Below are positions 4,901 through 17,876 of a stretch of 64,000 nt of DNA, in pieces. The DNA lies in assembly GCA_000697355.1 (NCBI GenBank), contig JNEN01001258.1, forward strand, positions 1-64,000, written 5' to 3'. Both the position numbers and the translations under genes were made by a program. The notes under the pieces were generated by a model, which saw only the letters and a program-made list of their open reading frames with translations, searched no databases and was not told where the DNA came from. Position 1 is the stretch's first letter. The number at the start of each line of letters is the position of its first letter. This DNA comes from Syncephalastrum monosporum B8922 (Eukaryota; Mucoromycota; Mucoromycetes; Mucorales; Syncephalastraceae).

Positions 4901-6065
4901 GCTTGTTCTGGTCAAGGCCGGACAAGTACGATAAGCTTGATGCGAAGGGTATCGAGGTAAGGGTTGGAATATGGGAAATTTTGAGATCTGTGTTTTAACG
5001 GACCCTTTTTTATAGACGGTTCGACGTGACAACTGTCGCTTAGTATCGTCCGTGATTCAGACCTCACTCAACAAGCTGTTGATTGATCGTGATGTGGTTG
5101 GAGCCCAAGAGTAAGCGCATTTTCCCTACTATCTTTATAAGTATCTTATGTCATATCAGGTTTGTCAAGCAAACCATTGCCGATCTTTTGCAGAACAAGG
5201 TAGACATGTCAAATCTTGTGATCACCAAAGCGCTATCGAAGAGCGACTATGCCGTCAAGCAGGCCCACGTCGAGCTCGCCAAGCGTATGCAAAAGCGTGA
5301 TGCCGGTTCGGCCCCGGGTCTAGGTGATCGTGTCGCGTACATCATTACCAAAGCCAGCGGCAATACACCAGCTTACGAGCGAGCAGAAGATCCGCTCTAT
5401 GCCTTGGACAACAATATTCCCATCGACCCCCGCTACTACCTCGACAACCAACTCTCCAAACCCCTTCAACGTATTTTCGAACCCATCCTGGGCGACAAAG
5501 TGAGCGAACTGCGTAAGTAACATATATATACACACACACACAGTAGAAACCAGGACTATGTTACTGACATCCTTCTCCAGTCCAAGGTGCACACACACAG
5601 GCGGTCAAGGTCGTGACGCCCTCCGTGGGTGGTTTGATGCGTTTCACGGTCAAGACCTTGCAATGTCTGGGATGCAAAGCACCTCTTCCGAAAGGAGGTA
5701 CGTTTCCATTTGTCACTATCATTATTATTTCTTTAACCTGTACTTTGTAGATACTTCACCCTTATGTAAGCACTGCTTACCCCGTATGGCTGAACTCGCC
5801 CAGTATCAGGTAAAAGCTTGTTATCACGCGGTGTACCGACAACTTAACAGGGTATCCTATACAGGCTCAAACAGCGGATGAAGCGACGACACGATTCGCA
5901 CGTTTATGGACTCAGTGTCAGCGGTGCCAAGAATCATTGCATCAAGACGTGATTTGCAGTAATAACGACTGTGGTATCTTTTTCATGCGCAAAAAAGCCC
6001 AAAAAGATGCGGAAGAAGCCAACGCACGTCTGGAGCGGTTCGATGCGTTTGATAATGGCTGGTAA
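1958..6065 (+). CDS. POL3: DNA polymerase delta catalytic subunit
   Basis: Family B replicative polymerase that copies the lagging strand with PCNA and proofreads. Nineteen exons: 1958-1973, 2029-2088, 2138-2217, 2282-2392, 2440-2715, 2766-2857, 2918-3078, 3131-3373, 3430-3695, 3746-3932, 4029-4241, 4300-4451, 4499-4615, 4669-4956, 5016-5110, 5160-5512, 5581-5697, 5751-5809, 5865-6065; together 1028 residues in frame. Visible motifs: Exo I (SFDIEC), Exo II ([16 protein letters not shown]), Exo III region (YCLKDAYLP), Pol A (DFTSLYPSI), Pol B ([13 protein letters not shown]), Pol C (YGDTDS). Two C-terminal cysteine clusters follow: CLGC...CKHC (zinc, CysA) and CQRC...C-x4-C, which binds 4Fe-4S in the family (CysB). 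The N-terminus is about 60-70 residues shorter than yeast Pol3; either the start at 1958 is real or a small upstream exon was missed. Confidence 0.95.
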
Positions 6066-6280
6066 ATGAAACCCGAACACTCAAAACCCCTTTTTTTTGC
6101 ATAATACATCGTCCTTCTTGTTACCACTTTTTATCTGATTTACGCCAGCTTAGTACGTGGCACAATGTTATAAGCTTGTCATCTACGATAGCTGTTACAA
6201 TCAATCATACGCCGCGTATCATTTTCATCAAGATGAAAGGAAGTATGCGAGCTATCCTCTGCGCATATAGAATGAACTCG

Positions 6281-6326
<46 letters not shown>

Positions 6327-14041: not shown

Positions 14042-17000
14042 TTATTGCTTAAGATCCTTGAGGACGGCCTGGGCGGTCGACTTCAGATCGAGGCTGCTGC
14101 AGGTGGAAACAGCGGCCTTGCCCTCAGCCTTGAGATCGACCTTGGACTCGACATCCGCACCAATGGAGAGCTCGATGATACCGGGCACGTTGATCTCGAA
14201 ACCCTTGACAACGATATCGAGCTCGCCGCTCAGAGCACCGCTCAGGTTGGCAACAATCTCGGGAATCTCAGCCTTCAGCTTAGCGACGAGGGAGCCCTCA
14301 AGGTTCAAGATGATGTCGAGGAGCTGGCTCTCGGGGAGAAGGTCGGTGACAGGAGACAGGAGGTTGACGAGGGTGTCTTCGAGCGAGGCAAAGACCTTGA
14401 GCTGGAGGTCGGCTTCGATCTTGGCAGCGATCTTGGCCTCGAGCTTCTTGATAATGGCCTTCTGGGTAGCCTTCAGCTCGATGTCGCCGGTCTTGACGAC
14501 ACCACCCAAGAGCTCCAGGTTGATGTCAAGCTTAGCAGCTACTTTTTCACAGATCTATTATGCGAAAGCGAGAAAAGAGATAGTCAATATCAGATGTTCT
14601 TTATTGATACATGGGGCTAAAATAATTTAGTTTACCGAGGCAGCGATGTCGCCAACGATCTTGGTGTCAGTGTGGGCACGGAGCTTGGTGAGGATCTGGG
14701 TGGTAAGGTTCTTGTCCTTCTTGTACTGGGTGGAACGCTTAGTGACGGTGCCGGAGACGGACGAAGAGCTGGAGGAGGTAGCACCACCGAGAAGAGACTG
14801 GACCTTGGCGAGGACGTTGGCGGGCAGGTCAGCGACCTTGGTGGGGAGCTCAGAGACCTCACCCTCAACAGTGGAGAGGACGGACTTGGGCAGATCAGCG
14901 ACGTTCACAGGGAGGCCCGAGAGAAGACCAGACAGGAGGTCCTCACCGCGCTTGGCGGAAGAGTCGGCCTTGTTGACGAGGGACTGAATCTTCTTCAGGA
15001 CGCTAGCGGGCAAGTCAGCAACCAAGGTGGGGAGGGCAGGGACCTCGGCCTCGACCTTATCAAGGACGTTCTGGGGAAGGTCCTGGACGTCCTTGGGAAG
15101 ACCAGCGACGAGGTTCGAGATGAGGTCTTCGTCGCGCTTGACAGCGGAGGTGACACCACCGAGAAGGGACTGAACCTTGGCGAGGACATTGGCGGGCAGC
15201 TCGGCGACCTTGGTAGGGAGCTGAGAGACCTCACCCTCAACAGTGGAGAGGACGGACTTGGGCAGATCAGCGACGTTCACGGGGAGACCCGACAGAAGAC
15301 CCGAGAGGAGGTCCTCATCGCGCTTGACAGCAGAGGTGGCACCACCGAGAAGGGACTGGACCTTGGCGAGGACATTGGCGGGCAGGTCAGCAACCTTGGT
15401 AGGGAGCTGAGAGACCTCACCCTCAACAGTGGAGAGGACGGACTTGGGCAGATCGGCGACGTTCACAGGGAGACCCGAGAGAAGACCCGAGAGGAGGTCC
15501 TCATCACGCTTGACAGCAGAGGTGGCACCACCAAGAAGGGACTGAACCTTGGCGAGGACATTGGCGGGCAGCTCGGCAACCTTGGTAGGGAGCTGAGAGA
15601 CCTCACCCTCGACGGTGGAGAGAACGGACTTGGGCAGATCGGCGACGTTCACGGGGAGACCCGACAGAAGACCCGAGAGGAGGTCCTCATCGCGCTTGAC
15701 AGCAGAGGTGGCACCACCGAGGAGGGACTGGACCTTGGCAAGGACGCTAGCGGGCAGCTCGGCGACCTTGGTGGGGAGCTGAGAGACCTCACCCTCGACG
15801 GTGGAGAGGACAGTGGAGGGAAGATCGGAGACGTTCACAGGGAGACCCGAGAGAAGGCCAGAGAGGAGGTCCTCATCGCGCTTGACAGCGGAGGTGGCAC
15901 CACCAAGAAGGGACTGGACCTTGGCAAGGACATTGGCGGGCAGGTCAGCAACCTTGGTAGGGAGCTGAGAAACCTCACCCTCGACGGTGGAGAGGACAGT
16001 GGAGGGAAGATCGGAGACGTTCACAGGGAGACCCGAGAGAAGGCCAGAGAGGAGGTCCTCATCGCGCTTGACAGCGGAGGTGGCACCACCAAGAAGGGAC
16101 TGGACCTTGGCAAGGACATTGGCGGGCAGGTCAGCAACCTTGGTAGGGAGCTGAGAAACCTCACCCTCGACGGTGGAGAGGACAGTGGAGGGAAGATCGG
16201 AGACGTTCACAGGGAGACCCGAGAGAAGGCCAGAGAGGAGGTCCTCATCGCGCTTGACAGCGGAGGTGGCACCACCAAGAAGGGACTGGACCTTGGCAAG
16301 GACATTGGCGGGCAGGTCAGCCACCTTGGTAGGGAGCTGAGAAACCTCACCCTCGACGGTGGAGAGGACAGTGGAGGGAAGATCGGAGACGTTCACAGGG
16401 AGACCCGAGAGAAGGCCAGAGAGGAGGTCCTCATCGCGCTTGACAGCCGAGGTGGCACCACCAAGAAGGGACTGAACCTTGGCGAGGACATTGGCGGGCA
16501 GGTCGGCGACCTTATAATATGCAATTTGATCAGTTTACTGTGAGGTAAAAAGGCGACAGTATATTTTACCTTAGTAGGAAGCTGGGAAACCTCACTCTGA
16601 ACAGTGGAGAGGACGGTGGAGGGCAGATCGGAGACGTTGACGGGAAGGCCAGCGAGAAGGCCGGAGAGGAGATCAGCTTCGCGCTTGGCAGGGGCCTTGG
16701 CAGACTGGGCAAGAGACTCGAGCTTCTTGAGGATATCGGAAGGCAAATCAGCGACCTTGGCCGGCAGGTCGGAGGCCTTCAAAGAAGTCGCCTTGGCGAG
16801 GAGGTCCTTAGGGATTTGAGAAACGAGCTTGGGCAAGCCCGAGATAGAGCCCGAGATAGAGCCCGAGGCGGACGCATCAGCATTAAGACCGAGATCGATG
16901 CCACGCTTGACGGGGGTGAGGCTCAGGTTGTATTCATCGCGACGACCGAGGTTGACGTTAAGACCGAGGTCAGCGTTGGCACGCTTGACCTGGGCAGCGA

Positions 17001-17130
17001 CATCGGCGATGGCGGCGCCGTTGGCCTGAACGCCGACCACGCTAGCAGGGCCAGCGATAGGAGCGGCATAGGTAGTGAGTGCCATGGAGGCCACGGTGAA
17101 GAGCATTCCAGAAACTGCCTTGATCTGCAT
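14042..17130 (-). CDS. Secreted tandem-repeat protein with Lys-Arg (kexin) sites between modules
   Basis: No assigned function. Exons 17130-16570, 16510-14636, 14554-14042; 982 residues. Residues 1-22 form a signal peptide (hydrophobic GMLFTVASMALTTYA, then APIAGP). The N-terminal part has dibasic sites (VKR, GRR, PVKR, PAKR). Ten modules of 62 residues follow, most of the form KR-DEDLLSGLLSGLP...DLPSTVL...LPTKVADLPANVLAKVQ; the ninth is diverged and the last ends in a Ser run and TKR. Each module contains two half-units of the pattern LPxxVxDLPxxVL. A non-repeated domain of about 200 residues, rich in Leu/Ile/Lys, closes the protein and contains only two cysteines. The architecture matches kexin-processed repeat proteins such as Ustilago Rep1; cleavage here is inferred. 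A TATA box lies upstream. Confidence 0.85.
14735..16686 (-). repeat. Tandem array of ten 186-bp (62-codon) modules
   Basis: Coding minisatellite inside the secreted repeat protein. The period is exactly 186 bp: the sequence gacgttcacagggag recurs at about 15830, 16016, 16202 and 16388. Copies between 15650 and 16450 are nearly identical at DNA level, while copies nearer 15000 are diverged. The first module is interrupted by the 59-bp intron at 16511-16569. Module boundaries were set at the AAG-CGC/CGT (Lys-Arg) codons. Confidence 0.92.
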
Positions 17131-17263
17131 TATGTATGTGTATAGTATGTACTAAGTCGAATGAAGGGAAAGGGAATAAAGGACAAAGGAGGGCTTTGCG
17201 GCAAGGAACGGCGCGGGTAGTGAGAGGGATAAGAACAACAACCCATAGAAAATCCGAGACACC

Positions 17264-17273
17264 CTTTTATATG
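17264..17273 (-). promoter_or_regulatory. TATA box of the secreted repeat protein
   Basis: On the minus strand the sequence CATATAAAAGGG lies about 135-145 bp before the ATG at 17130. A strong TATA box fits a highly expressed secreted protein. Confidence 0.6.
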
Positions 17274-17876
17274 CAAGCGCACTTACTAGACGACCCAAAA
17301 TCTTGAAGGCGGGCTTTTCCTTTCAAGCACATCATCCTAATTATTGTCGGGCAATACGCACAAGCACCATTAAACGCGTGTTCGAAATTATTGCTTATCC
17401 ATGCTGGGTAGAAAGGTGGCACGAAGCTAAACAAGACTTGAGCCCCTGGCGTGTATTCAAAAAAAAAAAATTCAGAACGAGGCACACCATTTCTCATTTC
17501 CTTTTCTTGATCCGACCCAAAGTGTCGGCAGAATGGTGGGAGCTTGTGTGCTGACCAAAGACAAGGTCAGCTTTTTGGTTAGTTAGCAAAGACAGCGGAG
17601 TTTTGGGCATATCGTTCCTTTCAGCGATCTTTGAGGCAGATGACGTTACATCTGTAATTTCCCCTTTTCCCTCGTAACGAGAACCCGCACGTCCCGCCAC
17701 TAAAGTGATGATACGGCTTCGACCTCCCATTACTAGCCATTGCAGTCCATACGAAGCAAAAAGATCACATAGATGTGCAGATGAAAAAATAGCGGATCTA
17801 ACATTACCCATATCATGGCCAAGATTTGATGTCCAGCGCCGTAGGCCGATCGAATGGAGCGGAACGGCTTTTCATT

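Follow-up and report, generated by a model that had tools for sequence, protein, structure and literature searches.

A candidate kexin-processed precursor of about ten near-identical peptides in the mucoralean fungus Syncephalastrum monosporum

Introduction

Kexin-processed repeat proteins (KEPs) have been defined by at least three tandem repeats of at least 8 aa lying between KR, KK, RK or RR, with no repeated sequence longer than 100 aa (PMC7329392), and by repeats that make up at least 15% of the protein, the C-terminal fragment being set aside in that account (PMC6339444). The wording of PMC7329392 also excludes proteins with separated sequences of more than 100 aa. The same survey reports 357 KEPs in the Mucoromycota, present in 38 of 39 strains, and gives 2560 of its 7878 KEPs as having no homologue (PMC7329392); larger peptide sizes are described for the Mucoromycota and Chytridiomycota (PMC6339444).

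Two proteins of Ustilago maydis offer the closest comparison. Rep1 contains 12 amphipathic repeats, and its cleavage by Kex2 releases ten peptides 35-53 residues long together with a 228-residue piece (PMC4617103). The peptides form surface-active amyloid-like fibrils that contribute to aerial hyphae and to attachment (PMC4617103, PMC8528282, PMC3032640), and the precursor is described as lacking the Ste13 signature (PMC6339444). Hum3 combines tandem amphipathic repeats, 31-36 aa in length, with Kex2 motifs and a distinct C-terminal domain (PMC4617103).

Here we analyse a gene of S. monosporum B8922 that an original prediction had read as coding for a secreted, kexin-processed repeat protein. 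To our knowledge, the water-repellent aerial structures of early-diverging fungi are poorly known at the protein level, and we know of no hydrophobins in the Mucorales. A single-copy, strongly codon-biased gene for ten predicted amphipathic peptides is a directly testable candidate for aerial water repellence. A Cys-free peptide of 60 residues, encoded ten times per transcript, would also be of interest as a biosurfactant, and the gene is a well-anatomised addition to the large set of KEPs without a homologue.

Gene model and layout of the precursor

The gene runs on the minus strand from position 17130 to position 14042 of the window, the 64,000-nt stretch of contig JNEN01001258.1 that was analysed. 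The start ATG at 17130 and the stop codon at 14042-14044 agree with the limits first proposed. Three exons of 561, 1875 and 513 nt are predicted, coding for 982 residues. The first predicted intron (59 nt, GT..AG, 16511..16569) lies within the first repeat, and its excision gives back exactly 62 residues, which supports this splice; the second (81 nt, GT..AG, 14555..14635) is placed in the last part of the gene. A TATA-box-like site, CATATAAAAGGG, a match to the consensus only, is found about 140 bases upstream of the ATG (17261..17276, minus strand).

Thirteen KR and one RR cut the protein into 15 segments of 50, 14, 12, 74, nine times 62, 71 and 203 residues, the sites ending at residues 50, 64, 76, 150, 212, every 62 residues up to 708, and then 779. 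The N-terminal segment (residues 1-50, 16981..17130, minus strand as for all parts of the gene) ends in KR and looks by eye like a signal peptide, with a hydrophobic stretch, TYA/AP and a short propeptide; in a hydropathy scan its maximum over 11 residues is 1.83, and after residue 30 no window of 19 residues exceeds 1.25. Next come two short stretches between dibasic sites, 12 and 10 residues long (residues 51-76, 16903..16980), which end in RR and KR respectively. The additional dibasic sites announced for the N-terminal part are thus indeed there, at residues 50, 64, 76 and 150.

The original prediction counted ten modules of 62 residues. Nine have this length (60 plus KR), and the tenth has 71, because a Ser-rich insertion ahead of the KR shifts this site (residues 709-779, 14735..14947). 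Module 1 (residues 151-212, 16436..16680) carries the first intron, and modules 2 to 9 (residues 213-708, 14948..16435) form eight tandem units of 62 residues, each terminated by KR, of which module 9 is diverged. Upstream of module 1, residues 77-150 (16681..16902) make up a degenerate eleventh unit, here called module 0, which has 45% identity to module 2 and also ends in KR. At the DNA level, TRF describes the array as a 186-bp unit in 9.3 copies with 87% matches; the copy number may be off, as it comes from a single assembly of a near-identical repeat. The EA that directly follows the KR at the head of module 1, a Ste13-type dipeptide, is found at the start of no other module; the rest begin with DE or GE, and most of the modules with DEDLL.

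The unique C-terminal part comprises 203 residues in a single copy (residues 780-982, 14045..14734). It matches no Pfam family above the cut-off, in keeping with the unique domain first described, and it holds, at positions 814 and 964, the only two Cys of the whole protein.

Set against the KEPs, the locus has the signal-peptide-like start and ten tandem units separated by KR, each below 100 residues: the units measure 62-71 aa including KR, and the repeats amount to 63% of the protein length. The 203-residue C-terminal piece exceeds 100 aa, if it is to be counted as a separated sequence. The locus differs from other KEPs in that its unit is long, at 60 residues, and matches no sequence found.

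Dibasic sites and the kexin machinery

The number of KR and RR in the protein is beyond chance. The protein has 16 Arg as against 73 Lys; the 14 KR/RR sites account for 15 of the Arg, and the C-terminal part holds the remaining one. No KR or RR lies inside a module. With modules 3-8 omitted, so that 610 aa remain, 8 KR/RR are observed for an expectation of 1.0; in 20,000 shuffles the count never exceeds 6. In an alignment of nine of the 11 units, two of its rows being alike, K61 and R62 are among the 21 invariant columns out of 62, and columns 53-60 just before them include no invariant position. The two units left aside, module 1 (which crosses an intron) and module 3 (which equals module 4), also carry the KR in a module-by-module comparison. 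In module 10 the KR has been relocated, not lost, since it still closes the module before the C-terminal part in spite of the insertion. The original prediction asked that homologues conserving the modules should conserve the KR too; as no homologue was found, conservation was followed between the modules of this one protein, where the KR is kept in all nine aligned units, the most diverged included.

A search of the genome (27.5 Mb, 198 contigs) with the P-domain profile gave matches at two loci. Subtilisin-type motifs (HGTRCAG and GGTSAAAP) are found in ORFs there, whose top-scoring PDB entries bear the name Kexin (E 5.7e-51 and 1.1e-46), so that two kexin-like loci are present in the same genome. 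Together with the repeat architecture, the invariance of KR in the nine aligned units and the selection on the peptide described below, this lends good support to the kexin-processed design, and peptide release by kexin is very likely judging from the sequence. Four KK pairs also occur, one in module 0, one in module 9 and two in the C-terminal part. KK is a weaker kexin site, and its cleavage, if any, would break the pieces that contain it.

Divergence between modules and codon bias

Among nine modules, module 9 being set aside, pS is 0.26 against a pN of 0.05 (36 pairs), the latter slightly raised because module 10 was compared without a gap over its four final positions. Between the neighbouring modules 1 and 2, 37% of silent sites and 4% of replacement sites are changed; modules 3 and 4 share one DNA sequence. 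Compared with each of the other nine, module 9 has 24-26 substitutions in 62 residues, with a dN/dS of 0.33-0.52. The excess of silent differences between modules indicates that the array is not merely a fresh duplication and that the peptide is held by selection. Within the array (14735-16680, minus strand) the sequon NVS is limited to modules 1-5, being replaced by NVA in modules 6-8 and 10 and by DVQ in module 9, and potential N-glycosylation thus divides the array in two.

With EF-1alpha as the reference (three of the four intended loci, the fourth having no ORF with the search motif), the CAI of the gene is 0.571. Taken separately, the C-terminal part, which has no repeats, scores 0.579 and the first 150 codons 0.435. 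The reference itself has 0.78, and 14 ORFs of the window have 0.119-0.263, these being likely sense frames picked from 26 and taken from stop to stop, so that they may include untranslated codons. The same protein recoded with the codon usage of the window ORFs would have a CAI of 0.185 +/- 0.010 (500 draws). ORFs with the GAPDH motif at four loci have 0.483, 0.331, 0.322 and 0.137 (the last is a 67-residue fragment), and the two kexin-like ORFs have 0.178 and 0.198. Strong expression of the gene is predicted from this codon bias, which is far above that of the window ORFs.

Two observations accompany this analysis. EF-1alpha-like loci number four in this genome, each on a contig of its own and all with the same profile score. 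On the plus strand, a stop-free frame of 640 codons (14621-16543) runs antisense to most of the repeat array, and is most likely a by-product of the strong codon bias in the repeat.

Properties of the predicted peptides

A trimmed module would have 60 residues (69 for the tenth) and about 6.0 kDa; the masses calculated for the unmodified peptides are near 5956-6306 and 6751 Da. All ten modules are acidic, with a net charge of -3 to -5 and a pI of 4.05-4.20, and Phe, Trp, Tyr and Cys are absent from them. The mean helical hydrophobic moment is above that of shuffled modules (p 0.001-0.0025 for windows of 11, 14 and 18 residues), whereas the maximum moment is only weakly so (p 0.05-0.10), which makes the peptides moderately, not strikingly, amphipathic. 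The best hydrophobic period in a single module is 3.7 residues, a value preferred to the 3.65 residues of the whole array, which is partly imposed by the 62-residue repeat. The module also contains an internal duplication of 22 residues (found in 0 of 2000 shuffles) punctuated by LP, with LP at the helix starts.

The AlphaFold model of one module, computed from the nine-row alignment, is helical throughout (helices at residues 2-10, 21-32, 34-39 and 43-60), with a pLDDT of 68.5 and a pTM of 0.29; residues 59-62, at the KR end, fall below 50. With modest confidence, the module may be described as helical without a defined tertiary fold. The amphipathic helix first suggested receives moderate support, from the mean moment, the period and the model. 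Foldseek returned no match to the module model at E<=10, and the model of the C-terminal exon (pLDDT 45) is unusable.

Searches for related sequences

The gene is single copy, its locus being the sole one in its own genome, also at E<=10. The full-length protein found no homologue at E<=1e-3 among 7998 scored candidates, nor did a shortened query at E<=10 among 7997. The scored candidates are those sharing most short words with the query, and low-complexity words may crowd out distant relatives, so that close relatives are excluded better than distant ones. As a control, the neighbouring ArgJ was run against the same protein database and at least 30 rows named as Mucorales genera were present among the 120 matches listed; we take these genera to belong to the order Mucorales. 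The gene's own protein was likewise not returned from that database. Pattern matches in bacterial/archaeal genome contigs and viral contigs numbered 25, 4 and 23, none of them confirmed, as expected for fungal DNA. PDB sequence searches gave nothing better than E 0.16.

Pfam matches below the cut-off (DUF6627, 22.7 bits against 27; Baculo_PEP_C, 20.3 against 38; and others) were set aside as low-complexity resemblance. The protein was likewise rejected as a hydrophobin, which would require eight conserved Cys, against two here in the whole protein and none in the modules; the PF01185 (hydrophobin) profile had no match in the genome, and the control genomes gave none either. In open-licence literature, neither the unit nor Mucorales repellents are described among the matches listed. 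As far as these searches reach, the sequence of the unit is new; the kind of precursor is already known, since Mucoromycota KEPs and their larger peptides have been surveyed.

Possible functions

The plan of the precursor is strikingly shared with Rep1, when the two are compared by description: both would give ten amphipathic peptides and, beside them, a single larger piece (203 residues here, 228 in Rep1). A Ste13 signature is lacking in Rep1, and here an XA start is present in one of ten modules only. The phylum is different, the modules here are near-identical, and the module is modelled as helical, as opposed to the amyloid-like fibrils of Rep1, so that the chemistry of the film may differ. 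Hum3 likewise shares the amphipathic tandem repeats, the Kex2 motifs and a separate C-terminal part; it ends in a hydrophobin domain, whereas the C-terminal part here has two Cys and no Pfam family above the cut-off.

The precursor is predicted to enter the secretory pathway, where kexin would likely cut it in the Golgi to yield about ten peptides of 60-69 residues plus a piece of about 203, and the KR tails would be trimmed by a carboxypeptidase. The predicted amphipathic helices would collect at air-water or wall surfaces, coating the fungus; ten copies per transcript would suit the making of a structural surfactant in bulk. We are, on balance, inclined to think that kexin releases ten amphipathic, surface-active peptides that would coat the fungus in the manner of Rep1, a surface coat being, by analogy with Rep1, a plausible leading function in our analysis. 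Against a coat stand the helical model as compared with the amyloid-like fibrils of Rep1, the KK pairs in some of the pieces and the moderate amphipathicity. Furthermore, knockouts of six Coprinopsis KEP genes gave no phenotype as reported in PMC9769878, whose authors favour a biotic interaction.

Exchangeable apolipoproteins are built of Pro-punctuated helices of 22 residues. The 22-residue duplication with LP at the helix starts recalls them, as a likeness of pattern, not of sequence, and here within a fungal kexin-type precursor. One may tentatively speculate that the Mucorales have a surfactant class of their own, strongly expressed, released by kexin, free of Cys and made of such 22-residue helices, which would form an apolipoprotein-like film instead of hydrophobin rodlets or Rep1 amyloid and would take the job of a coat in a lineage without hydrophobins.

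Action on the membranes of other organisms, deterring competitors or predators, would employ the same precursor design and the same helical pattern, and would agree with the biotic interaction preferred by the Coprinopsis authors (PMC9769878). Ece1p, moreover, is described as a precursor with Kex2 sites that gives rise to a peptide damaging membranes (PMC7329392). We nevertheless judge such a role unlikely, as the ten modules are acidic, with the net charge of -3 to -5 given above, and as ten copies with strong codon bias better fit a bulk product. Typical membrane-active peptides are cationic.

It is also rather unlikely that the array stays uncut, as one long secreted protein of the wall or matrix in which the KR are exposed linkers. 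Pro-punctuated helices could, on the model, form a beaded rod, and cleavage is here deduced from sequence. Against this, each of the ten modules, like the degenerate unit, ends in KR while the residues preceding it vary, Arg is almost confined to KR and RR, and KR has been relocated, not lost, in module 10; the two kexin-like loci speak against an uncut array as well.

The active product could instead be the C-terminal 203 residues, with the repeats as a pro-region that keeps them soluble until kexin frees them. This part is unique, has two potentially paired Cys and a KR just before it, and shares the codon bias of the gene equally. A tenfold pro-region under purifying selection would in our judgement be unusual, and Rep1 too gives a piece of 228 residues beside its small peptides (PMC4617103), so that we give this possibility little weight.

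Alpha-type pheromones belong to the KEPs (PMC6339444), and the released modules could by that token be pheromone- or hormone-like signals, which we hold to be still more improbable. Their 60 residues are far above the 9-24 aa of the pheromone class (PMC6339444) and the Ste13-type XA start occurs in one of ten modules. An alpha-type pheromone precursor, with repeats of 9-24 aa that often begin with a Ste13 XA/XP dipeptide, against 60-69 aa here, was rejected as a candidate on both counts. Mating peptides were among the products named in the original prediction for proteins of this design; a mating role is unlikely because the sexual pheromones of the Mucoromycotina are described as apocarotenoids (PMC6339444).

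Finally, a cyclised ribosomal peptide of the ustiloxin (dikaritin) kind shares the logic of the Kex2-repeat precursor (PMC7329392) but has a negligible probability here, the modules being without Tyr, Phe, Trp and Cys. No UstYa (DUF3328) was recognised in the part of the window scanned, and in the genome the profile gave 0 matches, its control being silent too.

Genomic neighbourhood

Fifteen different ORFs from part of the window were scanned with Pfam. They include RING/FHA, a TEAD-type YBD, glycosyltransferase, malic enzyme and Fn3-like domains, as well as a mitochondrial carrier, BCKDH kinase, Vps39, DJC28 and glycerol-3-phosphate dehydrogenase, some ORFs being without a domain; no peptide-modifying enzyme, UstYa included, was recognised among these 15. 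The neighbouring ArgJ has 77% identity to that of Fennellomyces sp. and 72-73% to those of Zychaea, Phascolomyces, Dichotomocladium and Lichtheimia, and one further match reaches 99%; these matches put the fungus in the Mucorales.

A run of 45 A (100% match, TRF) is located at 6281-6325 on the plus strand. On the minus strand, the ORF at 25118-26101 matches PF17725, the YAP-binding domain of TEAD factors, scoring 26.6 bits where the cut-off is 23; a domain of this type in fungi would bear on the origin of TEAD-coactivator signalling.
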